The notes under the pieces are model-generated. The model was given only the letters and a program-made list of their open reading frames with translations. It searched no databases and was not told where the DNA came from. 64,000 nt of DNA. Source: Pelagibacteraceae bacterium AG-319-F18. Lineage in GTDB: Bacteria; Pseudomonadota; Alphaproteobacteria; Pelagibacterales; Pelagibacteraceae. The position numbers and the translations under genes were made by a program. Within the stretch, counting starts at the first letter, position 1, and each line of letters opens with the position of its first letter. The stretch is taken from positions 1 through 64,000 of the forward strand of contig QBXA01000002.1 in the NCBI GenBank assembly GCA_003283905.1. The letters are read 5' to 3'. Below are positions 47,848-60,479 of this stretch, piece by piece.

Positions 47848-48747
47848 TTAAATATATTTTTTTTCTGTATTTAATTTTTTTTTTGATGAAATAATTATTT
47901 GTCTTATAGATTCTTTATTTGATTTGAATTCTTCAGCTATTTCCTCCAGTCCATAACCAGCAAGATGATAATTAAAGATATTATATTCTTTATTTGTTAA
48001 AATTTTTTCACGATCTAGCCTTGAGTCAATTTTAAGTTGAGTAGCTTCAGATTCTATTAATGATTTATTAAAAAAATAATTTTCAAAATCTTTTTCTGAA
48101 TTTGAAATATTAATAGAGTCAATATATTTTTTAACGTTATAATCTTTAACTTTTGATCCTAAAGGATGATCTTTATTTAATTTTTTTACTACTCTTGAAA
48201 TTTCTTTATTATCTAGATCACAACAGGATTTATTTATTTTTAATTTATTAATAGTAGAAGCTATATTATAAAAAACCTTTTCATCTTCTTTAGTAGTGCA
48301 AAATTTGATACTTGAAGAATTTTTTAAGCAGTAATCATTTAAGGTATTTTTAACCCACCATTGAGCATAACTTGAAAACCTAAGTTTAACCCCATCTTCT
48401 TGTTGGGTGCCCCATTTTTCTACTTTAAAATTTTTAATAGCTATAAGGATACCAATATTAGCTTCAGCAAATAAATCTTCAAAATTTATTTTTTTACCTA
48501 TTGAGTTAAATTTAATTTTTGCTTGCTTGAAGGCATATTTTGAAAAATATCTACTTAATTTGTTTGTAGCGTTTTGGGAAATTTTTGAATTGTCAGATTT
48601 TGCTTCTTTTAAAAGCGCAAATTCCTGACACTCAGATAACACATCTTTAGGAAAAAGGTTTGTAGATTGCATTTTTTTTATGCAATCAACTATTTCGTCG
48701 TTAATTATAGACTGATTTTCAGCACTTTTTGTTGTTTTTTGATCCAT
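47848..48747 (-). CDS. Divergent sigma-70-family factor (RpoH-like)
   Basis: A 299-residue sigma factor. Region 2 is seen as DLFAEANIGILIAIKNFKV, then RFSSYAQWWVKNTLNDY, the -10-recognition and melting helices. Region 4 is LTNKEYNIFNYHLAGYGLEEIAEEF followed by a helix-turn-helix KESIRQIIISSKKKL. The best relatives are RpoH-type factors, but the linker between (about 165-230) is divergent. It likely directs RNA polymerase to a special promoter set. It leads the minus-strand operon with NurA and HerA, and a perfect 12-base palindrome lies just before its start. It is not the housekeeping sigma or a canonical rpoH. Confidence 0.75.
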   Translation of the reverse strand: MDQKTTKSAENQSIINDEIVDCIKKMQSTNLFPKDVLSECQEFALLKEAKSDNSKISQNATNKLSRYFSKYAFKQAKIKFNSIGKKINFEDLFAEANIGILIAIKNFKVEKWGTQQEDGVKLRFSSYAQWWVKNTLNDYCLKNSSSIKFCTTKEDEKVFYNIASTINKLKINKSCCDLDNKEISRVVKKLNKDHPLGSKVKDYNVKKYIDSINISNSEKDFENYFFNKSLIESEATQLKIDSRLDREKILTNKEYNIFNYHLAGYGLEEIAEEFKSNKESIRQIIISSKKKLNTEKKYI

Positions 48748-48750
48748 GTA

Positions 48751-48762
48751 TGTTGATCAACA
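48751..48762. promoter_or_regulatory. Perfect 12-base palindrome before the sigma-factor gene
   Basis: TGTTGATCAACA is perfectly symmetrical and lies 4-15 bases upstream of the sigma-factor start at 48747. A TATATA box lies further up at about 48783-48788 (minus strand). It could be an operator for a repressor dimer or form an RNA hairpin over the ribosome-binding site. Confidence 0.4.
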
Positions 48763-48831
48763 ACAATTTGATGTGCTAATAAATATATAGGTATTAAATT
48801 TAAAAATTTCAATAAAAATTTTAAATTCAAT

Positions 48832-49854
48832 CTAAAGTTGAGAAACTGGCCTGTCTGCTAAAGTAAGCATATAATTTGGCAGATTTAAGTGTTCTTTTTC
48901 ACTTATCCAATGAAAACTAGAGTCTTTGTGATTTAGTTTATTATTAAATAATTCAAAGGGATGATTTCCAGTTTCTAGACCTCCATAATTACTATAAATT
49001 CTTCTGCCATGACTTTCCCCAACATTTCCTTCATTACCAGTATCCCACTTTAAAATCTTTAACTTAAAATTAATTTGCCCATCAATTTTTTTAAGAAATT
49101 CATAGGCCTCATCTGAAAATGTTTTAATAGACATTTTAAATTCATCTAATAATCTAGCCCTAACTCCGGTAATTATTTCTATTTCTATTTTTTCCCCAGT
49201 GATTTTTTCAATTTGATTGAAAATTTTAATCAAATATTTGAGACTTTTTTCATATACTGCACGATTTTGACTTGTAAAATTTCCTTTAGCAATTCCTTCC
49301 CAAAATTCTTTAGCAACTATTGTTATTTTTGAAGAACACCAAAATGTATTAAATAAAATTTCTTCATATTCTTCAAAACTTTTAATATTTGAATTATTAC
49401 TATCTGCTAAAAGAGTTTCATTATCAGTTATATGATGTTTTTCTGAAAATTTTTCTATGATTTGAAATATTTTATCAAGCTCTTCTAATTGAAAAGTTTC
49501 AATATCATCATCAATTTTTTTATCAGAAATTACAATTTGTATTGGGTATTTTTTTGTTTTTAAATCTTTTGCAAATTCAATAAAATCATTTTCATATTTC
49601 CCTTTAGTTTTATAGTCAATCTTATTAGTTCCATTAATTAGAGAAGTTAAAAATATTTCAGTATTTTTAATATTTTGATTACTTATTTTTTCATGTTTAG
49701 CAATCTTTTTTAAAAGATTTTTATTGTTATCTAGTAATATAATTATATTTGTTTTATTTTTAAAATAAGAAAATAAATTATTAATAGTTTTTTCTTCTCC
49801 TTCTGTTAATTTGTTACAAATGTAATCAGAGTCTAAAATGATATTTACATTCAT
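48832..49854 (-). CDS. Unknown partner protein of the AAA/DUF3696 ATPase
   Basis: A 340-residue protein that overlaps the ATPase stop by one base, so it is translated with it. The N-terminal third looks like a nucleotide-type alpha/beta fold (NIILDSDYICNKL, IIILLDNNKNLL). The C-terminal part has GRRIYSNYGGLETGNHPFELF, an Arg/Tyr/Asn/Gly-rich loop that resembles a conserved region in proteins found beside such ATPases in defence loci, from memory. No catalytic site can be named. It may be a nuclease, effector or sensor. No signal or membrane segment is seen. Confidence 0.62.
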   Translation of the reverse strand: MNVNIILDSDYICNKLTEGEEKTINNLFSYFKNKTNIIILLDNNKNLLKKIAKHEKISNQNIKNTEIFLTSLINGTNKIDYKTKGKYENDFIEFAKDLKTKKYPIQIVISDKKIDDDIETFQLEELDKIFQIIEKFSEKHHITDNETLLADSNNSNIKSFEEYEEILFNTFWCSSKITIVAKEFWEGIAKGNFTSQNRAVYEKSLKYLIKIFNQIEKITGEKIEIEIITGVRARLLDEFKMSIKTFSDEAYEFLKKIDGQINFKLKILKWDTGNEGNVGESHGRRIYSNYGGLETGNHPFELFNNKLNHKDSSFHWISEKEHLNLPNYMLTLADRPVSQL

Positions 49855-51995
49855 TAAATTTCATTTAACCTTTCATTAAATAAACCGTGTCTCCATGTAT
49901 TTATAAATTCACCCTTTTTATCTATCTGCATGTGATCAATTTTAGATCCATCACCATTTTCATCTAAATAAACATAATTAATTGCAACATCATCAGGATT
50001 TAATTTATTTTCTCTTATTAATTTTTGAATTCTTAATAAAAAATGTTCACTATGAGTTTCTATAATTATTGAATTCCCCTTTTCCTTGATAACATCTGCT
50101 AGTAGTTCAATTAAATTTCCTTGTATTTTAGGGTGAAGTTTATTTTCAGGTTCTTCTAAGATAATTACAGATTCTTCTGATCTAGATATATCTGCTAATA
50201 AAAGTAAAATTGACCTCAATGCATTTCCAGATTGTTCCAAAGGAATTTCCTTAATCTCATTGTTTACTTTTGAAATTCTTTTATTCTCAAAACTTAGTCT
50301 GATATTCCCACTTTCATCTGACTTAGAACTTATTTCAAAAGGAAGATCAATTTTTTCTAAAAAGGAGATTATTTTTTTTTTGTATTCAGGGTTTTCGTGA
50401 ATCCCATTATGCAAAAATCTACTCATATTGTGGGTTCCTGAACCGGTTACCCCCATTGGAAAAGGTGAATTAAAATTACTTTTTTTGAATTTGGATAAAT
50501 CCTCACGAAATTTAAATAAATTTCTCAGTTGTTCTACTATTGAAGTAGGATTTGTTTCTTCAATTTTTTTAATATATTCATGTCCTTCATCTGTGATCGG
50601 TTGAAGCTCACCGTTTTCATCAAAATTACCTATATAACTGTCTAAGAACTTCTCGGGAATTTCATCAAATAAAAGTCTAAAAATGAATCCACCATAAAAA
50701 CGTTGGTTAGGTAAAAAAGTATTTCCTTGGATTATGTAAGTTTCAAGGTCTTCACTCATTATATTAATGAATTCATTTAAATCTGACTCCATTACTTTAA
50801 GTGTTTTTTTATAGGTATCGTCAACTTGAGGTATACTTTTCGGGTCAACCCCAAAGTTATCCTCAAGCCATATTCGTGCGTTATAAAAATGCTCATCAAC
50901 GTAAATTTTAAAAATTTGTTTTTTAGATATATCTTTTTTTATATTCTTTTGAATTTTAATCATTTCTTCTTTTAAAAATTGTAAAAAATCAAAATATTTT
51001 TTCCAAATTTCAGGATCTTTTGAAATTTTTGTAGGTAAGAATAAATATTTAATTAATTTTGTAGTATCTTTTTTTAATTCTTTTGGACCATTTGGACCAA
51101 TCATGTCAAAAATTCTTATCGGATTAAACTCGCCATCTCTATATTCATTATAGAGATCTTTTGAAGTTTTCACTTTAACTTCAAAATCAAATTTTCTATT
51201 TACTAAACCAGACTCACCTGAAAAATTTTCTTTATAATGCTGAATTAATATATCCCTTATATTTTTTTCTTGTTCCAAACCTGCAACTTTAGATGTTCTT
51301 CCAAATAGAATGCCTCTTCCTTCGGTATCAATTTTTGGCATTTCTACGATTTTAAAAGTAATAAAGTTTTTGTTTTCTTGAATAATTTCTAATTCTTTAA
51401 TTTTTAGATTATTAATACCTTCAACTTTATCATCTCTTAAAAATGAAGGCACTTTAGTTTTATCCCTTTCTTCTTTTGCCATTTGTTCAGCTTCTTCAAT
51501 TGTTTCAGGCTCTTTTTTTTTTAAAGACTCATTTTTAATTCTTATCTGTTCATCAAATATTTTTTTCATTCCTACAAGCAGATCATCTCTATCCTTGTTA
51601 GATAAACCATATTTTTCAAATTTTTCTAATATTCCTGGATCATTAATAATATCTTCAATTTCATATGAAGTTATTTTTGAGCTAGGATTTACAAAATTAA
51701 AGGAAAATATAGTTGATTCATCTTTTTTTAAATTTGAAGAAAAATTTAATGCAAAAGTAGAATTTTTTGATCTATCAAAAGATAAAGTTTTAATGTTTGC
51801 AAAATCTGATCTGGTTAAATCTAAAAAATTACTACGAGAGCTAGTTCTGGTACTCTCTCTTAGTGCTAAAAAAAATTTCCATAATGAACTTTTTCCTGAA
51901 CTATTAGGTCCATAAATAAGTGTTATAGGCGCAATTTTTAATGTGGCGTCTTCATTAAATGATTTAATATTTTTAAGTGAAAGATTACTTAACAT
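49854..51995 (-). CDS. ABC-type AAA ATPase with DUF3696-like C-terminus
   Basis: A 713-residue SMC/RecF-like ATPase. Walker A is IYGPNSSGKSSLW (about residues 27-39), a signature-like region is LEQSGNALRSILLLLADI, Walker B is VIILEEPENKLHP near 610, and a histidine switch lies in IIETHSEHFLLRI. The C-terminal segment DKKGEFINTWRHGLFNERL matches the DUF3696 pattern. A long, charged and helical middle (about 100-560) separates the ATPase halves, as in OLD-like and Septu-like proteins. Such ATPases sense DNA and often guard against phage, together with a partner gene. The next gene overlaps it by one base. It diverges from rmuC. Confidence 0.85.
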   Translation of the reverse strand: MLSNLSLKNIKSFNEDATLKIAPITLIYGPNSSGKSSLWKFFLALRESTRTSSRSNFLDLTRSDFANIKTLSFDRSKNSTFALNFSSNLKKDESTIFSFNFVNPSSKITSYEIEDIINDPGILEKFEKYGLSNKDRDDLLVGMKKIFDEQIRIKNESLKKKEPETIEEAEQMAKEERDKTKVPSFLRDDKVEGINNLKIKELEIIQENKNFITFKIVEMPKIDTEGRGILFGRTSKVAGLEQEKNIRDILIQHYKENFSGESGLVNRKFDFEVKVKTSKDLYNEYRDGEFNPIRIFDMIGPNGPKELKKDTTKLIKYLFLPTKISKDPEIWKKYFDFLQFLKEEMIKIQKNIKKDISKKQIFKIYVDEHFYNARIWLEDNFGVDPKSIPQVDDTYKKTLKVMESDLNEFINIMSEDLETYIIQGNTFLPNQRFYGGFIFRLLFDEIPEKFLDSYIGNFDENGELQPITDEGHEYIKKIEETNPTSIVEQLRNLFKFREDLSKFKKSNFNSPFPMGVTGSGTHNMSRFLHNGIHENPEYKKKIISFLEKIDLPFEISSKSDESGNIRLSFENKRISKVNNEIKEIPLEQSGNALRSILLLLADISRSEESVIILEEPENKLHPKIQGNLIELLADVIKEKGNSIIIETHSEHFLLRIQKLIRENKLNPDDVAINYVYLDENGDGSKIDHMQIDKKGEFINTWRHGLFNERLNEI

Positions 51996-52086
51996 ATAAT
52001 AAAGATAGCGGTTAAATTGATTTAATTCAACTTCTAGTAATTTTTAAATTATTGAAAAAAAACTAGATTGTCTGTACTTATAAAGT

Positions 52087-53157
52087 ATGGAATCAGTACT
52101 AATAGTTTTAAACATTTTAACTTTGACCCTAATTATTATTGGGGGCTTTTATTTTTATCAAAGAAATTCAAAAAAAAAATTAGAGCAAGAAATTGAAGAT
52201 CAGAACAATGAACTTGGTAAAAAGGATGAAATTAATGAACTAAAATCAACTTTTCAAGAGTCTTTCAATATTATGAGTAAAGAAATTGCAAGAGATATGA
52301 CTGGCGCTTTAACTAAAGTGGATGAAAAAGTGGGAAATTTTAATAGTCAGGTTGAGTTACTAAATAAAAGCCAAGAGGGGATAAGTAAAATTTTAGCGGG
52401 TGTTAAAAAATATGGAACCCTTGCTGAATTTAGTTTAGATGCTTTAATTAAAGATTTATTACCAGTCTCTCAATTTATGACTAATGTTAAGATGAAGGAA
52501 GATACTAGTGAGAATGTTGAATTTGCAATCAAGCTTCAAGGAGATGTTCTGGTGCCAGTTGATAGTCATTTTCCAGTAGAAAAATTTAAAGCAATTACCG
52601 ATGGTCATGACGCGGATGATAAAAGGGCTGTTGCAGACGCTAGAGCAAAATTAGCTACTGCTTTTAAAGCTAAGGCAAAAAGCGTTAATGAAAAATATAT
52701 TGTTCCTCCAAAAACTACAGATTTTGCAATTGTTTATGCTCCAACTGAAAGTTTATATAAAGAATTAACTGAATACCAAGATCCAAGTACTAAAGAGTTA
52801 TTAACTCAAGAATTAATGAAAAAACATAAAGTTGTAATCTGTGGACCAAACACTCTTTCAGCTTACTTGCAATCTTTACATATGGGTTTTCAATCTTTAA
52901 AAGTTCAAAAAGGAGCTACAGAAATTTATAATCACTTAAAAACAATAACTTCAAGATTTGGAAAACATTTTGAAAATATAATTTCTCTTAGAAAAAAATT
53001 AGAAGAAGCTATGTCCGTTGTGGATAAGTTTGGAACAGATGCAAGATCAATTACTAGAACTCTTGAAAGTATTAAAGACCCTGAACAACTTGAAAAAGCG
53101 GTTCAAACAGAAAATGTAGAAAAATTTGTTGAACATTCAAAACAAGCCAAAAATTAA
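52087..53157 (+). CDS. rmuC: RmuC family DNA recombination protein
   Basis: A 356-residue protein: an N-terminal transmembrane helix (about 5-24), then a coiled-coil segment with repeated charged heptads (about 30-90), then the RmuC domain with VLVPVDSHFPVEKF, FAIVYAPTESLYKEL and the VVICGPNTLSAYLQSL core. Members limit DNA inversions and probably contain a restriction-nuclease-like fold, anchored at the membrane. It is the first gene of a plus-strand run ahead of the MGME1-like exonuclease and ExoI, from which it is separated by 37 bases. Confidence 0.9.
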   Translation: MESVLIVLNILTLTLIIIGGFYFYQRNSKKKLEQEIEDQNNELGKKDEINELKSTFQESFNIMSKEIARDMTGALTKVDEKVGNFNSQVELLNKSQEGISKILAGVKKYGTLAEFSLDALIKDLLPVSQFMTNVKMKEDTSENVEFAIKLQGDVLVPVDSHFPVEKFKAITDGHDADDKRAVADARAKLATAFKAKAKSVNEKYIVPPKTTDFAIVYAPTESLYKELTEYQDPSTKELLTQELMKKHKVVICGPNTLSAYLQSLHMGFQSLKVQKGATEIYNHLKTITSRFGKHFENIISLRKKLEEAMSVVDKFGTDARSITRTLESIKDPEQLEKAVQTENVEKFVEHSKQAKN

Positions 53158-53194
53158 TTTCTTTTTTTCTCTAATAACGAATATAAGAAATCAC

Positions 53195-53881
53195 ATGGAG
53201 TGGAATAATAAATATAGCTATCCAAAATCAACTAGATCAATAGTAGATGGCTCAAGGCATTATTCTGTGAATGAGGAACGATTACCCTCAGTGACAACAA
53301 TTTTAAAAGCAACTGAATCTGAGGAAAAAAAAGCATCTCTTCAAGCTTGGAAGCAAAGAGTAGGTCAAAAGCAGGCTGAAATTATTACTCGTGAAGCAAG
53401 TAGTAGAGGAAGCTCAATGCATGAATACTTGGAAAAATTTTTACTTGGAAAGTTAAATTTAGATTTACTAGGAGACAATACTAAAGAACGAATGATGGCA
53501 GACCAGATTATTGAAAATGGATTAAGAAATAAACTTGATGAAATTTGGGGCTGTGAGGCAACATTATATTATCCAGGAAAATATGCCGGAGCTGCTGACT
53601 GTGTTGGTGTTTATGAAAACAAAGAAACAATAATTGATTTCAAACAAAGTAATAAGCCAAAAAAAGATGAGTGGATCGATGATTATTATTTGCAATGTGC
53701 GGCGTATGCTTTAGCGCACAATACTGTTTATGGATCTAATATTACCCAAACAGTTATTTTACTTTGTACAAAAGATAACATGTTTCAAAGGTTTTTAATT
53801 GAGGGTGATAGATTAAAAGATTATCAAAATAAATTTTTAGAAAAAGTTGAACAATTTTATGCACAAAGGATAGCAAATTGA
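53195..53881 (+). CDS. PD-(D/E)XK exonuclease resembling mitochondrial MGME1
   Basis: A 228-residue nuclease. Its N-terminal LPSVTTILKAT and LQAWKQRVG segments closely resemble human MGME1. His76 lies in SSMHEYLEKFL, and the catalytic set is Asp135 (GAADCV), Asp148 and Lys150 (IIDFKQS), followed by a QCAAYALA motif. The D-to-D spacing of 13 and D-x-K match the MGME1 site as I recall it (D238, D251, K253; H180). MGME1 is an exonuclease of single-stranded DNA that processes 5' flaps in mitochondrial DNA. The frame extends to 53126, but the ATG at 53195 fits better. It overlaps the ExoI gene by four bases, suggesting joint end processing. Confidence 0.85.
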   Translation: MEWNNKYSYPKSTRSIVDGSRHYSVNEERLPSVTTILKATESEEKKASLQAWKQRVGQKQAEIITREASSRGSSMHEYLEKFLLGKLNLDLLGDNTKERMMADQIIENGLRNKLDEIWGCEATLYYPGKYAGAADCVGVYENKETIIDFKQSNKPKKDEWIDDYYLQCAAYALAHNTVYGSNITQTVILLCTKDNMFQRFLIEGDRLKDYQNKFLEKVEQFYAQRIAN

Positions 53882-55323
53882 ATTACGTAGTATGGGATAT
53901 TGAGACAGATTCTGCCCAAACAGATTGGGCAACTATTATTGAAATTGGTGCGATTTTACTTGATGAAAACTTTAAAGAAAAAGAACGTTTTTCAGCGAGA
54001 TGTAGGTTGCCTCAAGACAGAGTTCCAAGTGCTACTGCACTTTGTATCAATAAATCAAATGTAGACTTATTAACTAAAGGCAATTTAAGTCATTACGAAA
54101 TGTTAACTCAGGTTGAACAAAAATTTAGAGAATGGTCACCTGCAACCTTTTTAGGCTATTCAAGTATCAACTTTGATGATGAAGTAATTAGAAAAGAATT
54201 TTTTAAATCTTTAAGAAAGCCATATTTGACAAACACAGAAGGAAATGTTCGTCATGATGCCTTAAATATTGTTAGAGCAGCATTTGCAATCGATGATGAT
54301 GTTTTAAAAACTGAATTAAATCCTAAAGGAAATAAATCAATGAAACTAGAGTCTTTAGCAAGATTAAATGGGTTTGAGTCTGCTGGAGCACACTCTGCAT
54401 TATTTGATACTGAACTTACTGTTAAGGTTTTAGATTTAATTAAACAAAAACAACCAACCCTTTGGCAAGAATATTTTAAAACAAGTAGCAAAGTAATTGT
54501 TGAGAACATGATTAAGCAAGAAAAAATATTTACTCTTAATGAATATTTTTATGGAACAAGTCGATTATATTTATGTGCTCCACTACATCCAAATGCTTGC
54601 ATGCATCCAGTATATAAATGGGGTCAAGCAGTAGATTTAAGAGTTGATATTGAAGCTATCCAGAAATTAAATTATGAGGATCTAAAAAAAGAGATGAAAA
54701 AATCTCCTAAGTTTTTAAGAACTATCAGATCAAATAAAGCACCAATAATTTTAGATCAAAGTTTTGGAATGAAAGTTGAACCATATAGCAAACTGGATCC
54801 TAACTTGATTAAAAAAAGAGCTGAGTTAGTTAAAACTAATGAAAAATTTTCACAAAATATTTGTAATATTTTAAGAGAAGCTGCTGAAGAGAAAATGGAA
54901 ACCTCTTCACAAGAGGATATTGAGCCAGAAGAGTCTATTTATTCTGGAGGTTTTACCTCAGCTAAAGATCAAGCTTTATTTCCTAAATTTCATACAGGAG
55001 ACTGGAAAGAAAAGTTTGCTTTATTAGATAAATTTGAAGATGAAAGATTGGTTACATTTGGCCATGGCCTTATATTTAATGAGGCACCTGAAATTTTACC
55101 AAAAGAAATTCATAAAAAAATTAAACGTCGTATAGCTTCAAGAATACTGAGCACTAATAAGGAGAAATGGTGGACAGTCTCTGCCTTTTATTCAGAGTGT
55201 GATGAGATTAGAGAGAATGAAGATAAGATGTTTTCATTCAAAAACGTAGATGAAAAGCTTAAATTTTTAGATGGAATTAATGAATATGTGATGAATCTAG
55301 AACAAAAGTATTCAGACGCATAA
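53878..55323 (+). CDS. sbcB: Exodeoxyribonuclease I
   Basis: A 481-residue DEDDh 3'-5' single-strand DNA exonuclease. The DnaQ-like core has VVWDIETDS (Asp7, Glu9), FLGYSSINFDDEVIRKEFF (second Asp), and AHSALFDTELTVKV (His and last Asp). The ExoI-specific SH3-like and C-terminal domains follow, with HPVYKWGQAVDLRVD and WWTVSAF. It starts with TTG at 53878, overlapping the stop of the MGME1-like gene (TTGA). It acts in mismatch repair and recombination. ExoI is not universal in alphaproteobacteria, so its coupling to the MGME1-like exonuclease is notable. Confidence 0.92.
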   Translation: MNYVVWDIETDSAQTDWATIIEIGAILLDENFKEKERFSARCRLPQDRVPSATALCINKSNVDLLTKGNLSHYEMLTQVEQKFREWSPATFLGYSSINFDDEVIRKEFFKSLRKPYLTNTEGNVRHDALNIVRAAFAIDDDVLKTELNPKGNKSMKLESLARLNGFESAGAHSALFDTELTVKVLDLIKQKQPTLWQEYFKTSSKVIVENMIKQEKIFTLNEYFYGTSRLYLCAPLHPNACMHPVYKWGQAVDLRVDIEAIQKLNYEDLKKEMKKSPKFLRTIRSNKAPIILDQSFGMKVEPYSKLDPNLIKKRAELVKTNEKFSQNICNILREAAEEKMETSSQEDIEPEESIYSGGFTSAKDQALFPKFHTGDWKEKFALLDKFEDERLVTFGHGLIFNEAPEILPKEIHKKIKRRIASRILSTNKEKWWTVSAFYSECDEIRENEDKMFSFKNVDEKLKFLDGINEYVMNLEQKYSDA

Positions 55324-55355
55324 TTTAATAAATCAAAAAAATCTATTTTTGCCCA

Positions 55356-55383
55356 TTGAATAATCAATTGAATCAATTATATC
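55356..55383 (+). promoter_or_regulatory. Candidate promoter of the thioredoxin gene
   Basis: TTGAAT (55356-55361) and TATATC (55378-55383) with a 16-base spacer lie in the only gap upstream of trx. The predicted start falls at or within a few bases of the ATG at 55390, so the mRNA could be leaderless. Chance matches are common in this composition. Confidence 0.3.
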
Positions 55384-55389
55384 AGTGAT

Positions 55390-55707
55390 ATGCTAAATGA
55401 TTTTAAAGACGAAGATTTTGATAGTAAAATAAAAAACGAAGATATTTCAGTTATCCAGTTCTCAGCTGCTTGGTGTGGACCTTGCAAGGCTCTTGTTCCA
55501 GTAATGACTAAGCTTTCAGACGAATATAAAGACAAAGCTGGTTTCTATTACGCAGACATCGAAGATGGTGGGATTAATACTGGAAGTGCTGCAGGAATAA
55601 GAGGTGTACCAACAGTTATTATCTACAAAAAAGGTGTTGAAGTAGATAGAAAAGTTGGTGGAGTTCCTGAAAGTCACATGAAAGAATTTTTAGATAAAAA
55701 TATCTAA
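55390..55707 (+). CDS. Thioredoxin
   Basis: A 105-residue thioredoxin with the active-site WCGPC (about residues 29-33) and the cis-Pro loop GVPTVIIY. It reduces protein disulfides and is kept reduced by thioredoxin reductase. Length and motifs match bacterial TrxA. The end overlaps the convergent folC by four bases. An upstream promoter-like pair is present, and no ribosome-binding site is obvious. Whether it is TrxA or a paralogue cannot be told. Confidence 0.92.
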   Translation: MLNDFKDEDFDSKIKNEDISVIQFSAAWCGPCKALVPVMTKLSDEYKDKAGFYYADIEDGGINTGSAAGIRGVPTVIIYKKGVEVDRKVGGVPESHMKEFLDKNI

Positions 55708-56972
55708 TTTAAATTCAATACTTCCCCTGCAAGATAAAGAGATCCAGTAATTAGGATAATATCGTTTTCCTTGACCGGAATTGACCTAATAGCATCCTCT
55801 ATATTTTTTTTGTAATTGATATTTATGAAGCTATTTAGCTTATCTTTAAGCTCTTTTCCTTTAATTGAGTTTGGTTGATTAGGGATATCAATAGTGGTCA
55901 AGGTTTTAACATTCTTAAAGAAACTCATGTATTCGTTATGATCTTTGTTAGCCATCATTCCTAAGATGATATGTTTATTACAATCCAAACTTTCTAAATA
56001 TTCATTTAATACTTTTGCCCCTAAAGGATTATGCGAACCATCAACAAAAAGTTGATGATCTTTAACAAGCTCTTTAAGTTTACCTGATTTAATTTCCTGT
56101 AATCTTGCAATACTGTTTATTTTTGTAATTCCTTTTTTGATATGTTCATCTTTTATATCAAAATTTTTTAAAGTTCTTAACGTTGTAATAGCGGTTGAGA
56201 TATTCTCTAATTGAAATTGTCCTTCAACATTAGGCATTGGTAATTTTAGACCACCCAACTGATCCTCATAATAAAAGAAATCGTTTTCTTTAATAGTAAA
56301 ACTATAATTTTCATTATGAAAAAACTTATTTGAACTATTATTTGAGATTGTTTTTTTAATACTATCTGTAATTTCTTTAGAACTTTGTTTTGCAACTAAA
56401 ATATTTGAATTTAAAAGAGTTGAAGTTTTCTCATAAATAATTTTTTCAACAGTTTGTTCATTTTCAGGTAACCAATCTAAATGATCAAGACCGATGGAAG
56501 TTACAATACTAGCTAGATTATTTTTAAGAATATTTGTGGCGTCAAATCTATGAAATAAGCCAGTTTCTATTAGATTGATATTATCTGGGTATTGAGAGGC
56601 TTTTAAAAAATAAGCAGCAGTTAATATCTCAAAAAAAGTAATGGATTCATTATTGTTAGCACTTTCAATTTCTTCAAACAAATTTGCTAACTCTTCATCA
56701 TTAAGTTCTTCATTATTAAAAACAAATCGTTCATTGATACTTTTGATATGTGGACTAGTGTAGATATTACATTTGATATTTGCTTCTTTTAAAATAGCAA
56801 ACATTGCTTGAATTGTTGAATACTTTCCATTGGTTCCTACAATTGAAATTGCTTTAAGTTTATCTTGAGGATTTCCTAATCTTTTACAGAGATTTTGAAT
56901 ACGATCTAAACTAAGATCTATTTCTTTAGGATGCAGCTCTTGTAAGCGACTTACTATCTTCTGAAGTTTCAT
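55704..56972 (-). CDS. folC: Folylpolyglutamate synthase / dihydrofolate synthase
   Basis: A 422-residue Mur-ligase-type enzyme that adds glutamate to dihydropteroate and folates. It begins LQELHPKEIDLSLDRIQNLCKRLGNP, typical of alphaproteobacterial FolC. The P-loop reads GTNGKYSTI, with Tyr51 where family members have Gly (GTNGKGS). The C-terminal domain has FVDGSHNPLGAKVL, with the DGAHN-like motif changed to DGSHN. The start overlaps the accD end by 47 bases, yet the standard FolC N-terminus requires this start. Activity is probable but should not be taken for granted. Confidence 0.9.
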   Translation of the reverse strand: MKLQKIVSRLQELHPKEIDLSLDRIQNLCKRLGNPQDKLKAISIVGTNGKYSTIQAMFAILKEANIKCNIYTSPHIKSINERFVFNNEELNDEELANLFEEIESANNNESITFFEILTAAYFLKASQYPDNINLIETGLFHRFDATNILKNNLASIVTSIGLDHLDWLPENEQTVEKIIYEKTSTLLNSNILVAKQSSKEITDSIKKTISNNSSNKFFHNENYSFTIKENDFFYYEDQLGGLKLPMPNVEGQFQLENISTAITTLRTLKNFDIKDEHIKKGITKINSIARLQEIKSGKLKELVKDHQLFVDGSHNPLGAKVLNEYLESLDCNKHIILGMMANKDHNEYMSFFKNVKTLTTIDIPNQPNSIKGKELKDKLNSFININYKKNIEDAIRSIPVKENDIILITGSLYLAGEVLNLN

Positions 56973-57858
56973 TTTGCTCAGAACTTATAACAGAATTTTG
57001 CTTTAACAATATTGATAATAAAGTTCCTATTTTTGATGCAAGATCTTTACGTTCAACAATTAAATCAACAAAACCTGTTTTTTCAACATATTCACTTTTT
57101 TGAAATCCTTCAGGTAATTCTTCTTTAACCGTTCCTTGAATTACGCGAGCCCCAGCGAATGCTACGAGGGCGTCGGGCTCTGCAATATGAATATCACCTA
57201 ACATTGCATAACTAGCGGTAATGCCGCCCGCAGTTGGATCCGTCAATACAACTATATAAGGAAGACCTGCGGCTTTAACCTCATTAATTGCAAGTGTCGT
57301 TCGGGTCATTTGCGATAATGAGATTAATGATTCTTGCATTTTCATTCCTCCCCCTGATGAGACCATCAATAAAGGTTGTTTATTTTCTATTGCATGTTGA
57401 GCGGCAAATAAAAAAGCTTCTCCTTCAGCAGCACCTATACTTGCACCCATAAAATCAAAGTCTGATGCGATTGCAGTAATTTTTATTTGATTGATAGATC
57501 CTTCTGCTATTACCATACTACATTCTAAGCCTGTTTTTTTACGAGCAGCTTTTAATCTCTCTTTGTATGGTTTAGAGTCTGTCCAGTTTAGAGGATCATC
57601 TTTTGGAATAGAGGTTTTAAATACTTCATAATTATTTTTACCGAATAAGATATCAAATCTTTGGCTAGGTTTAATTCGGTGATGTTTGTTACAATCAGGG
57701 CAAACCCATAAGTTTTGTTCTAAATCTTTTTTAAGAATGGGACCTCTACAACAACTAGTCCAGTCTGACTTAGCTATATCTTCTTTTGAAGCTCTTTCAT
57801 GAAAAGCAGTTTTAATTTTTTCTGAAGCCTTAATTATTTTTTGTAACCAATTAACCAT
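56926..57858 (-). CDS. accD: Acetyl-CoA carboxylase carboxyltransferase subunit beta
   Basis: A 310-residue crotonase-fold subunit that with AccA transfers carboxyl from biotin to acetyl-CoA, making malonyl-CoA. SSGGGMKMQESLISLSQM and LTDPTAGGITASYAMLGD form the active site. The N-terminal zinc ribbon is altered: the second half CPDC is intact, but the first is CC in TSCCRGP rather than CxxC. It lies between trpA and folC, the common alphaproteobacterial order. It ends by overlapping folC by 47 bases. Confidence 0.95.
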   Translation of the reverse strand: MVNWLQKIIKASEKIKTAFHERASKEDIAKSDWTSCCRGPILKKDLEQNLWVCPDCNKHHRIKPSQRFDILFGKNNYEVFKTSIPKDDPLNWTDSKPYKERLKAARKKTGLECSMVIAEGSINQIKITAIASDFDFMGASIGAAEGEAFLFAAQHAIENKQPLLMVSSGGGMKMQESLISLSQMTRTTLAINEVKAAGLPYIVVLTDPTAGGITASYAMLGDIHIAEPDALVAFAGARVIQGTVKEELPEGFQKSEYVEKTGFVDLIVERKDLASKIGTLLSILLKQNSVISSEQNETSEDSKSLTRAAS

Positions 57859-57859
57859 A

Positions 57860-58663
57860 TTATTTTAATTCTTCTGTAAAATTTTTCACTAAATTGCCTA
57901 AACTTTGTGGTAAATCTTTGTTCTCAATATTATCTTGAATATATTTTACAAATGCCGATCCAACAATAACGCCATTACAGCCACTATTAGCCATTTTTTT
58001 AGCATCTTCAGGACTCTTAATTCCAAATCCTGAACAAATCGGAATATCAGTTAAATTTCTAATTCTTTTTACAAAATTTGTAACATCAGCTTCATTTGCT
58101 GATTTAACTCCAGTTACGCCTGACACATTGACTTGATACAAAAATCCGGAAGCTATTTTAACAATATCTTTAAGTCTGTTGTCATCAGTAGTAGGGGCAA
58201 CTAATTTAATAAGTGATAATCCATTTTTATTTAGAGCTTCCCTTAGTTGATTTTCTTCTTTTAACTCATGAGGAGCATCGACAACTAAAACAGCATCAGC
58301 ACCTGCTACTTTAATATCGTCTACAAAGTTTGAAATAGGGTACTTGTATAAATTAGCAATATAACCCATCAATACAATTCCCACATCCTGATTGTATTCT
58401 CTAATATCCTTAACTAGCTTAATAATATCATTAAGATTATGACCATTACTTAATACATGATCGTGAGCAGCTTTAATAATAGGTCCTTCCGCAGATGCTT
58501 CTGATGTGCAGTAACCGATTTCCAAAATAGATACTCCATTATTAATGGCTTCCTTGATTAACTCTAAACTTATTTCTGGAGTGGGGTAACAGCCTACAAA
58601 ATAAGAAACTAATTTTGTTTTAGGAAGTTTTTCAGCAAAAATTTTTTTAAGTCTATCACTCAA
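57860..58663 (-). CDS. trpA: Tryptophan synthase alpha chain
   Basis: A 267-residue TIM-barrel subunit that cleaves indole-3-glycerol phosphate, passing indole to TrpB. The catalytic Glu region ISILEIGYCTSEASAEGPI, VLVVDAP and GVIVGSAFVKYI are visible. The frame runs back to 58717, deep inside trpB; a TTG at 58663 (SDRLKKIFAEK) gives the usual short N-terminus with an 8-base overlap and is preferred. The usual GDP of the early strand reads GCYPTPE here. accD follows after one base. Confidence 0.92.
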   Translation of the reverse strand: MSDRLKKIFAEKLPKTKLVSYFVGCYPTPEISLELIKEAINNGVSILEIGYCTSEASAEGPIIKAAHDHVLSNGHNLNDIIKLVKDIREYNQDVGIVLMGYIANLYKYPISNFVDDIKVAGADAVLVVDAPHELKEENQLREALNKNGLSLIKLVAPTTDDNRLKDIVKIASGFLYQVNVSGVTGVKSANEADVTNFVKRIRNLTDIPICSGFGIKSPEDAKKMANSGCNGVIVGSAFVKYIQDNIENKDLPQSLGNLVKNFTEELK

Positions 58664-59846
58664 AGTCTTTACCAATATGTTCTTGAATTGTATTAAGGTC
58701 CTTCTCGCCGGTCCCACATAGGTTCAAACAAATAAGATAATCTTTAGGTTTATTCTTTGCTTGTTTTATTAATTCAGCTGCACCAGCCATTGGCTCAAGC
58801 GCACTACAAATTCCTTCAGTTGAAGCTATAAGCTTATAAGCCTCTAAAATTTCTTTATCAGTTGCACTTGTATATTTAACAACACCTTGATCTTTTAAAA
58901 ATGCATGTTGAGGGCCAACGCTAAAGTATTGAATACCCGCTCCTAGAGATGAGCCACCTAAAGATTTAGATCCATCATCTGTTTGAAGCATATACGTTTT
59001 CATCCCTTGCATAATTCCTGGTGTACCATTTGATAGTGCAGCAGTTTCAGCAGCCTCTACACCTATCTTAATAATTTCTGGTTCATCTAAAAATTCATGA
59101 ATCATACCAATTAAGTTACTTCCACCGCCACAACACGCGATTAACATATTAGGCAATCTTCCTTCTTGTTCCATTGACTGTTCTCTAATTTCTCTTCCAA
59201 TTACACTTTGAGCAAATTGAACAATTCTTGGATAGGGTGCGCTAGAAACAGCAGAACCACATATGTATGCATAGTCTGGATTACTTGAAAAAGTTTTGAT
59301 AGCTTCTGTAATAGCTTCTTTTAATGTCCCAGGTACACTTTTTAATTCTGCTCCATAGTGTTTAGCTTTGATTATATTTTGGTTTACCCTAGCTATATCT
59401 ATATCACCCATCACGCCGGTTAGAGGCATGCCAAATTTAGCAGCAACTGCAGCTGTAGCTGAAAAATGTTGTCCAGCTCCTGACTCACAGATTAATGCTT
59501 TTTTACCCATTCTTTTTGCTAATAATACTTGAAACAATGAGTTGGTCACCTTATGGCTTAAAGTGTGATTAAGATGTTCTCTTTTAAATAAAATTTTTGC
59601 ACCACCTAATTTCTTTGTAAGATTTTCTGCATAGTATAGCGGGGAAGGTCTACCAATATAATGCTTACAGTGATAATTAAATTCATCTAAAAAACTTTGA
59701 TCTTTGATTGCATCTTCAAAGCCTTGGTTTAACTCATGCAAAACGGGCATAAGTGTTTCGCCAACTGCCATTCCACCCATAGCAGAGTTACCCTCGCCAA
59801 AATAACCTAACTCATTAGGGCCTGTTTTATATGAATTTTTTGTCAT
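58656..59846 (-). CDS. trpB: Tryptophan synthase beta chain
   Basis: A 396-residue PLP enzyme that joins indole to serine. The PLP lysine is in LNHTLSHKVTNSLFQ, the phosphate loop is CCGGGSNLIG, and the catalytic Glu region is ICESGAGQHFSATAAV. It is preceded by trpF with a 9-base gap and overlaps trpA by eight bases. The length is normal. trpB and trpA form the classic two-subunit channelling complex. Confidence 0.97.
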   Translation of the reverse strand: MTKNSYKTGPNELGYFGEGNSAMGGMAVGETLMPVLHELNQGFEDAIKDQSFLDEFNYHCKHYIGRPSPLYYAENLTKKLGGAKILFKREHLNHTLSHKVTNSLFQVLLAKRMGKKALICESGAGQHFSATAAVAAKFGMPLTGVMGDIDIARVNQNIIKAKHYGAELKSVPGTLKEAITEAIKTFSSNPDYAYICGSAVSSAPYPRIVQFAQSVIGREIREQSMEQEGRLPNMLIACCGGGSNLIGMIHEFLDEPEIIKIGVEAAETAALSNGTPGIMQGMKTYMLQTDDGSKSLGGSSLGAGIQYFSVGPQHAFLKDQGVVKYTSATDKEILEAYKLIASTEGICSALEPMAGAAELIKQAKNKPKDYLICLNLCGTGEKDLNTIQEHIGKDFE

Positions 59847-59855
59847 AGATAATTT

Positions 59856-60479
59856 TTAAGAACTTATATTATGGACTGTATTTAAAAACTTATCAATTTT
59901 ATTTATATCTTTAACACCTTTTTTAGACTCTAAATTACCACTGACATCTATTAAAAAAGGCTTATCCTTAAAATTATTTAAATCATCAGTTTTGATATCG
60001 CCAGCTACCATAATTGGCTTTGAACTATTTACATTATCTAAAAAATTATGATTAAAAGACTCTGTTTTTTCATAACCTTTAGAGTCAAAAAGCAATATGT
60101 CTGCAATATCTTCAAAAGCTTCATGCTTATTGACGTCATCTTGATTAGATACTGTAAGAACTGAAATAATTTTTTTATTATACTTTTGCTTAATTTTTTT
60201 TATTTCTTCAGGTTTACAGTCATAAATTTGATAATAATCAAAAGGCAGATGTTTAATTTCTTCTAAAATATCTTCATCAGGTTTTACAAGTACTGCTACA
60301 AAATTAGATTTTTTTTTATCTAATGTTAATAGTTCGTTTAGTTTTTCAACCTCAACATATCTTGAGCTTTTTTTATAATTACAAATGAAACCAATAAATT
60401 GAGGTGGGTAGGGATGATTGATTATAAAATTAAGAGTATTGAGATCTGAAATCCCACAGATTTTAGACCCCTTAATCAT
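59856..60479 (-). CDS. trpF: Phosphoribosylanthranilate isomerase
   Basis: A 207-residue TIM-barrel isomerase in tryptophan synthesis. The N-terminal catalytic Cys is in KICGISDLNTL, and the C-terminal ADILLFDSKG and LIDVSGNLESKKGVKD complete the phosphate-binding site. GDIKTDDL is slightly unlike the usual GGL. It overlaps the pyrF stop by four bases (ATGA). It is the first trp gene here; trpD, trpC and trpE are not in the window. Confidence 0.92.
   Translation of the reverse strand: MIKGSKICGISDLNTLNFIINHPYPPQFIGFICNYKKSSRYVEVEKLNELLTLDKKKSNFVAVLVKPDEDILEEIKHLPFDYYQIYDCKPEEIKKIKQKYNKKIISVLTVSNQDDVNKHEAFEDIADILLFDSKGYEKTESFNHNFLDNVNSSKPIMVAGDIKTDDLNNFKDKPFLIDVSGNLESKKGVKDINKIDKFLNTVHNISS

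Follow-up and report, generated by a model that had tools for sequence, protein, structure and literature searches.

The 64,000-nucleotide stretch analysed here (the window) comprises positions 1 to 64,000 of contig QBXA01000002.1 from Pelagibacteraceae bacterium AG-319-F18, a member of SAR11, a bacterial group that is abundant in the ocean. It carries a gene for a PD-(D/E)XK exonuclease, here called exo, joined to sbcB, which encodes an exonuclease I (ExoI)-like protein. On sequence and modelling grounds, exo is a member of a phage-type exonuclease family with the fold of human mitochondrial MGME1, and activity on single-stranded DNA is predicted. Apparently captured from a virus and domesticated beside ExoI, it has spread through one abundant marine genus, and this spread coincides with a lack of RecJ in most of the genomes examined there. 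The genus carries a DNA-trimming enzyme of the mitochondrial and phage kind. We lean towards the explanation that the captured enzyme acts as the 5'-end partner of ExoI in recombination and repair and made RecJ dispensable.

The exo protein matches the phage exonuclease family PHROG 298 over residues 8–224 (E = 3.3e-52), and the only Pfam match, PDDEXK_1, lies below threshold. The sole credible sequence match in the PDB is human MGME1 (E = 2.4e-12, about 26% identity). An AlphaFold2 model (input 55 SAR11 plus viral sequences) has a predicted local distance difference test score (pLDDT) of 94.4, and MGME1 structures are its top matches in the PDB, with Z = 22.1 and a root mean square deviation of 2.2 over 187 residues; among other kinds, RecE gives Z = 13.7, AddA 11.1 and RecB about 7. 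An earlier note on this DNA had called the protein MGME1-like, and both the sequence and the fold searches bear this out: on superposition the predicted fold matches, and the arch and catalytic motifs correspond. Helices 43–56 and 58–83 of the predicted model are the counterpart of the helical arch that the consulted part of PMC6237815 describes over single-stranded DNA in MGME1. The nuclease domains of RecB and AddA share the PD-(D/E)XK core with exo (Z 7–11), but they sit in large helicase-nucleases, whereas exo is a nuclease domain alone, of 228 residues.

The full motif set of the MGME1/PHROG 298 family (Ia, I, II, III and IV) is present. H76, D135, D148 and K150, which the earlier note had matched to MGME1 by their spacing, do align with the motif residues of that enzyme. 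The two segments reported as shared fare differently: WKQR is identical in human MGME1, PSVTTIL only partly so (PSVTRVL in the human protein). The catalytic motif residues are kept in 106 of 106 exo-bearing genomes, except for H76 with 105, and the putative pin tryptophan W52 is kept in 105; one truncated row accounts for each exception. The counterpart of W52, W152, is named as a pin residue of MGME1 in the portion of PMC6237815 consulted. Human MGME1 resembles exo in fold, helical arch, all five motifs and pin tryptophan, and differs in possessing F173 and in the low overall identity given above. It also acts together with the mitochondrial replisome (PMC9460513, consulted in part), and exo has ExoI as its neighbour. 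The median ratio of nonsynonymous to synonymous substitution rates (dN/dS) is 0.07 over 460 pairs, so exo is under purifying selection.

Phages also carry such exonucleases, as the earlier note had mentioned: 937 phage records match exo, and two scans of viral contigs, possibly overlapping, gave 317 and 577 related stretches. The PHROG 298 enzymes (HTVC027P gp27 and those of Kyanoviridae and Ackermannviridae) resemble exo over most of its length and in all motifs; the copy of pelagiphage HTVC027P is 49% identical to SAR11 exo. The phage copies that were opened sit among phage genes, whereas SAR11 exo is chromosomal, beside rmuC and sbcB. For human MGME1 itself, PHROG 298 gives E = 9.7e-23 and Pfam PDDEXK_1 only 1.4e-6. 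Because they have this PHROG 298 match in common, the phage exonucleases, SAR11 exo and MGME1 form one family, with RecB-type domains more distant from each of them; in the consulted text of PMC4222359, MGME1 is called a close homologue of RecB. The earlier note had set phage exonucleases against MGME1 as alternatives, yet human MGME1 hits the phage family too. In BFVD, one phage protein already bears the label MGME1.

The distribution of exo is narrow. In a draw of 385 genomes from the class, strong matches (E = 7.5e-49 or better) occur in three genomes, all of the window's genus. Seven weaker matches lie in open reading frames of at least 1000 residues (five), in one of 319 residues near an integrase-like gene (G154) and in one distant open reading frame (G311). 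A draw of 398 genomes from the phylum has exo only in the window's genome, and its two other matches are AddA-sized. Among 155 Pelagibacterales genomes, selected at ≥90% completeness plus the window's own, exo is present in 106 of the 115 that belong to this genus, and none of the 40 others has it. One hundred and fifty-two of the 155 are ≥90% complete and ≤5% contaminated, and among these exo occurs in 104 and RecJ in 57. In earlier draws, whose genomes were less complete, 26 of 37 genomes of the genus had exo and 10 of 39 had RecJ.

In both trees that were built, the SAR11 copies form one clade (support 100/100 and 100/99) beside a viral clade that includes HTVC027P, and deeper viral lineages fall outside. 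The value of 100/99 belongs to a tree of 26 host and 16 viral rows; the other holds 47 representatives and MGME1, eight of 285 candidate rows having been dropped beforehand as partial or very long. Its cellular rows are SAR11 and MGME1, since one non-SAR11 cellular open reading frame (L083) missed the profile and another (L085) was among the dropped rows. This topology fits a single capture of exo from the virus pool by the ancestor of one SAR11 genus; we infer the direction, from virus to host, from the nesting in the tree.

The pairing with sbcB was followed in two sets of genomes. The first consists of 55 close loci from a species-level genome collection (71–98% identity, with SAR11 labels apart from one labelled only Alphaproteobacteria), and the second of the stretch fetched around exo in each of the 106 exo-bearing genomes. 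The earlier note's overlap of four bases with the sbcB start is correct: the exo stop and a TTG start share the letters TTGA. The same overlap and TTG start recur in 50 of the 55 close loci, and its conservation there argues that it is not due to chance. The other five have gaps instead, of 213 nucleotides (one) and about 1.12 kilobases (kb; four). AAAGG stands close before the sbcB start in 46 of the 50 overlap loci, and AAAGGA in 41. In the wider set, an sbcB-type match lies near exo in all 106 genomes and on the same strand in 103; of these pairs 8 overlap by 4 nucleotides, 89 have gaps of 1–215 nucleotides and 6 are about 1.1 kb apart. The spacer of about 1.1 kb holds rmuC in both cases scanned with Pfam (G012 and G031, the latter outside the 106). 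As the overlap occurs in 8 and the sbcB match in all 106, the overlap is a feature of one clade and was rejected as a general trait, whereas the pairing is general. In three genomes exo faces a divergent sbcB neighbour (26–31% identity), so the pairing outlived a swap of partner.

The third member of the cluster is rmuC, matched in 50 of the 55 close loci and at >50% identity in 87 of the 106 genomes; a thioredoxin gene (trx) lies downstream in many SAR11 loci. At the matching place, exo-free relatives have the order rmuC-sbcB-trx (G435) or sbcB-rmuC-trx (G037), and because both possess the cluster without exo, exo was apparently inserted into a pre-existing rmuC/sbcB cluster. Judged from these gene orders, the cluster appears older than the arrival of exo.

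The sbcB protein passes the Pfam cut-offs for RNase_T (E = 8.5e-10) and for the ExoI C-terminal domain Exonuc_X-T_C (E = 1.5e-14). It matches NCBIfam PRK11779 with E = 4.7e-44 and 150.8 bits, under the equivalog cut-off of 260. Its score against the PADLOC model RTasSbcB is higher, 249.6 bits (E = 1.5e-74). A joint arrival of exo and sbcB from a phage was considered and is not supported, as viral matches are few: tblastn of the ExoI protein finds two phage records, both short and unannotated, and one viral contig scan with six short ExoI peptides found no relative. The protein does, however, match PHROG 19080 (E = 2.2e-53), a functionally uncharacterized phage family, so phage ExoI-like genes exist. 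The near-absence of viral sbcB relatives suggests that the pair may have formed in the host; the PHROG 19080 match weighs against this.

Genomes were surveyed for the end-processing nucleases RecJ, AddA and PolA. RecJ is found in all 11 Pelagibacterales genera searched, and in the exo genus it is confined to a minority of genomes. Within the 155 genomes it is present in 22 of the 115 from the exo genus and in 37 of the 40 remaining Pelagibacterales; the three of these 40 that have no RecJ are known by subtraction only. Within the genus, 86 genomes have exo without RecJ, 20 have both, 2 have RecJ only and 7 have neither. The two exo-free genomes G880 and G919 (97% and 99% complete) both keep RecJ. 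Neither gene is found in 10 of the 155, about what assemblies of 90–99% completeness would miss: RecJ is missing in 3 of 40 exo-free relatives and exo in 7 of 93 RecJ-less genomes of the genus, 7.5% each, rates explicable by incompleteness alone. On a tree of 99 of the 106 genomes (G856, G862, G883, G913 and three with short sbcB are left out) the RecJ state changes at least four times. Absence of RecJ with exo and its retention without exo are therefore a strong trend that rests on few independent events. RecJ scores are lower in the exo genus, and mean identity is 45% for eight proteins within the genus against 46% for five from outside; but as the genus is diverse in sbcB too, these figures do not show a faster decay of RecJ there. 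In the RecJ loci inspected, the usual upstream gene, read as glpX, is present, judged by reading the neighbours. The SAR11/Pelagibacter literature, in the parts that we searched, has no report of RecJ loss in SAR11, which at such partial coverage is weak evidence of novelty. AddA exceeds the cut-off in both of the other alphaproteobacteria tested and in none of 8 SAR11 genomes, whose partial matches reach no more than 49 bits and are taken for UvrD-like helicases. All 10 genomes checked have PolA with a 5'-3' exonuclease domain.

In Escherichia coli, RecJ degrades single strands from the 5' end and ExoI from the 3' end, and cells without AddAB need 5' trimming to expose 3' strands for recombination. 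Against this background, the ancestor of the SAR11 genus would have captured exo once from the virus pool, and the gene would have landed in the existing rmuC/sbcB cluster. The enzyme would trim single-stranded DNA from the 5' end and ExoI from the 3' end, so that both polarities would be served; substrate, polarity and teamwork are predictions. Trimming of both strand ends, which the earlier note had raised, is plausible. Where AddAB is missing, the two enzymes together would handle DNA ends during recombination and repair. By supplying a 5' single-strand exonuclease, exo may have rendered RecJ dispensable, and RecJ would then have been lost in most of the genus. The likeness between exo and RecJ lies in this proposed role alongside ExoI; their motifs differ, DxDG and DHH in RecJ and PD-(D/E)XK in exo. 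The human enzyme MGME1 degrades single strands starting at the 5' end and favours a 5' phosphate (PMC9460513, as far as consulted), and cutting in both directions was reported earlier (PMC4222359, likewise in part). If the proposal is right, it bears on recombination in SAR11 and offers a clean system for testing how a phage gene becomes part of a core repair pathway.

Several observations weigh against this proposal. RecJ persists alongside exo in 20 genomes, that of the window among them, and its DHH motif is intact in 8 of 8 genomes of the genus inspected, 7 of them exo-bearing. As the absence of RecJ comes down to some four changes, all within one genus, the independent observations are few. 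In seven genomes of the genus neither gene is found, and a real double loss is possible, because one of them (G022) carries a different sbcB and another PD-(D/E)XK protein near rmuC. At the position of MGME1 F173, 105 exo rows have S, T, L or A; this aromatic half of the two-residue pin is absent, and flap opening may therefore differ from MGME1. With respect to the capture, a short contig of another alphaproteobacterium (G311) holds a distant match of nearly full length (E = 6e-21), absent from the tree.

A different role, in which exo handles flaps or primers in replication as MGME1 does in mitochondria and the loss of RecJ is unrelated, seems unlikely to us. The fold match to MGME1 speaks for it, and phage copies are often near replication or recombination genes: in Salmonella phage SenALZ1 the gene is flanked by uvsY and a helicase, in six of the seven cyanophage-type records that were opened it is beside gp33 (the exception is C48C1), and 46 of 163 viral loci have a member of one helicase family no more than 1.8 kb away, measured between centres. 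In SAR11, however, the linkage is to rmuC and sbcB, and the PolA 5' exonuclease domain already provides a flap or primer remover, so exo is not needed as one; replacement of a missing PolA 5' exonuclease is ruled out by its presence in the same 10 genomes. Alternatively, exo and ExoI scavenge single-stranded DNA and RecJ was lost by genome streamlining, with no compensation by exo. We judge this improbable to a similar degree: SAR11 genomes are small, the absence of RecJ is phylogenetically clumped and seven genomes lack both genes, but exo-free relatives of similar genome size keep RecJ in 37 of 40 cases, as do G880 and G919. A nuclease for anti-phage defence or superinfection exclusion, acquired from phage, would agree with the phage kinship, with weak Cas4-model matches (E = 2.4e-6), with the best PADLOC match of the partner, a reverse transcriptase-associated SbcB model (E = 1.5e-74), and with a defence-like ATPase upstream. 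It is nevertheless very unlikely, given presence in 106 of 115 genomes, a dN/dS of 0.07 and conserved neighbours; no reverse transcriptase appears among the open reading frames at 48000–60000, from reading the list and no dedicated search. Least likely is that SAR11 exo is a vertical alphaproteobacterial relative of the source gene of mitochondrial MGME1, since, for all the real homology and a tolerated MGME1 plus SAR11 clade, exo is in 0 of 40 other Pelagibacterales, the other nine class and phylum matches are seven AddA-sized frames of ≥1000 residues and two shorter ones (G311, G154), the SAR11 copies branch beside pelagiphage copies, and viral rows equal SAR11 rows against MGME1.

The preferred reading, phage capture, also changes what exo says about mitochondria. 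The earlier note had suggested that an alphaproteobacterial copy informs the origin of MGME1; in the genomes searched, close copies belong to one SAR11 genus only and branch beside those of pelagiphages, which takes the force from that suggestion. MGME1 is about equally distant from SAR11 and viral copies, and viral rows score as high against it as SAR11 rows. In the tree its branch is long (2.62) and it is the sole eukaryotic row. For its placement, in groups named after inspection of the tree, the P value of the approximately unbiased test (p-AU) is 0.145 with SAR11, 0.157 with SAR11 plus pelagiphages and 0.027 with cyanophages. MGME1 as sister of the cyanophage copies was rejected on the last value; alphaproteobacterial descent was set aside as the leading reading in view of the genus-confined copies and the tree, the joint MGME1–SAR11 clade having the p-AU of 0.145. 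The mitochondrial polymerase, helicase and RNA polymerase are commonly held to be phage-derived. Tentatively, and with less confidence than for the RecJ proposal, SAR11 and mitochondria may each have recruited one phage exonuclease family for DNA upkeep, exo being paired with ExoI and replacing RecJ, and MGME1 being phage-derived. If so, SAR11 recombination relies on a viral nuclease, and MGME1 is a further phage-derived part of mitochondrial replication. The phage-family match of human MGME1 makes the origin of the mitochondrial enzyme answerable by a broad tree. The literature searched, including PMC6963530, PMC12753301 and PMC9927291 and covered in part, contains no MGME1–phage kinship beyond structural likeness (PMC6237815), again weak evidence of novelty. 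Positions of the features are collected in Table 1.

Table 1. Features of the exo locus, numbered along the window
Feature	Position	Strand	Remarks
rmuC (PF02646), first gene of the cluster	52087..53157	+	Pfam E 1.2e-47; 37 nt upstream of exo
exo, 228-aa PD-(D/E)XK exonuclease, MGME1/PHROG 298 type	53195..53881	+	TGA stop at 53879-53881
W52 codon, aligned with MGME1 pin residue W152	53348..53350	+	
H76 codon, motif Ia, MGME1 H180	53420..53422	+	
E121 codon, motif I, MGME1 E223	53555..53557	+	
D135 codon, motif II, MGME1 D238	53597..53599	+	
D148-x-K150 codons, motif III, MGME1 D251 and K253	53636..53644	+	
Q167..Y171 codons, motif IV, QhxxY	53693..53707	+	
AAAGGA, Shine-Dalgarno-like, within the exo 3' end, 7 nt upstream of the sbcB start	53865..53870	+	
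TTGA, overlap of exo stop and sbcB start, 4 nt	53878..53881	+	sequence; 50/55 loci
sbcB, exonuclease I-like, 481 aa, TTG start 53878-53880	53878..55323	+	RNase_T + Exonuc_X-T_C
Thioredoxin gene, conserved flank	55390..55707	+	Pfam Thioredoxin E 9.6e-22

Some further observations concern the surroundings of these genes. Six cyanophage records (L090, L125, L126, L295, L297 and L298) have the exonuclease gene between phoH and gp33. In T4 the nearby spot holds the 5' nuclease gene rnh, and by analogy the cyanophage exonuclease may be a replacement for rnh. A second, divergent sbcB of about 480 residues overlaps or abuts a partner of 380–468 residues in G862, G856 and G022 (L417:392-2979, L416:59-2805 and L420:7215-10071, respectively), and the partner in G862 matches Peptidase_S24. 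The PD-(D/E)XK protein of G022 (L420:2024-2800, PDDEXK_1 E = 1.5e-7) is encoded between the thioredoxin and rmuC genes. In the window, three minus-strand genes at 47848-51995, adjoining rmuC, are possibly a defence island. One encodes a 713-residue AAA_21/AAA_15 ATPase with DUF3696 (PADLOC candidates PDC-M55A, 4e-36, and NsnB, 3e-35), another a 340-residue protein with no match in Pfam or PADLOC, and the third a sigma-70 region 2 protein. In G267, apparent his genes occupy the place of these three genes near rmuC.

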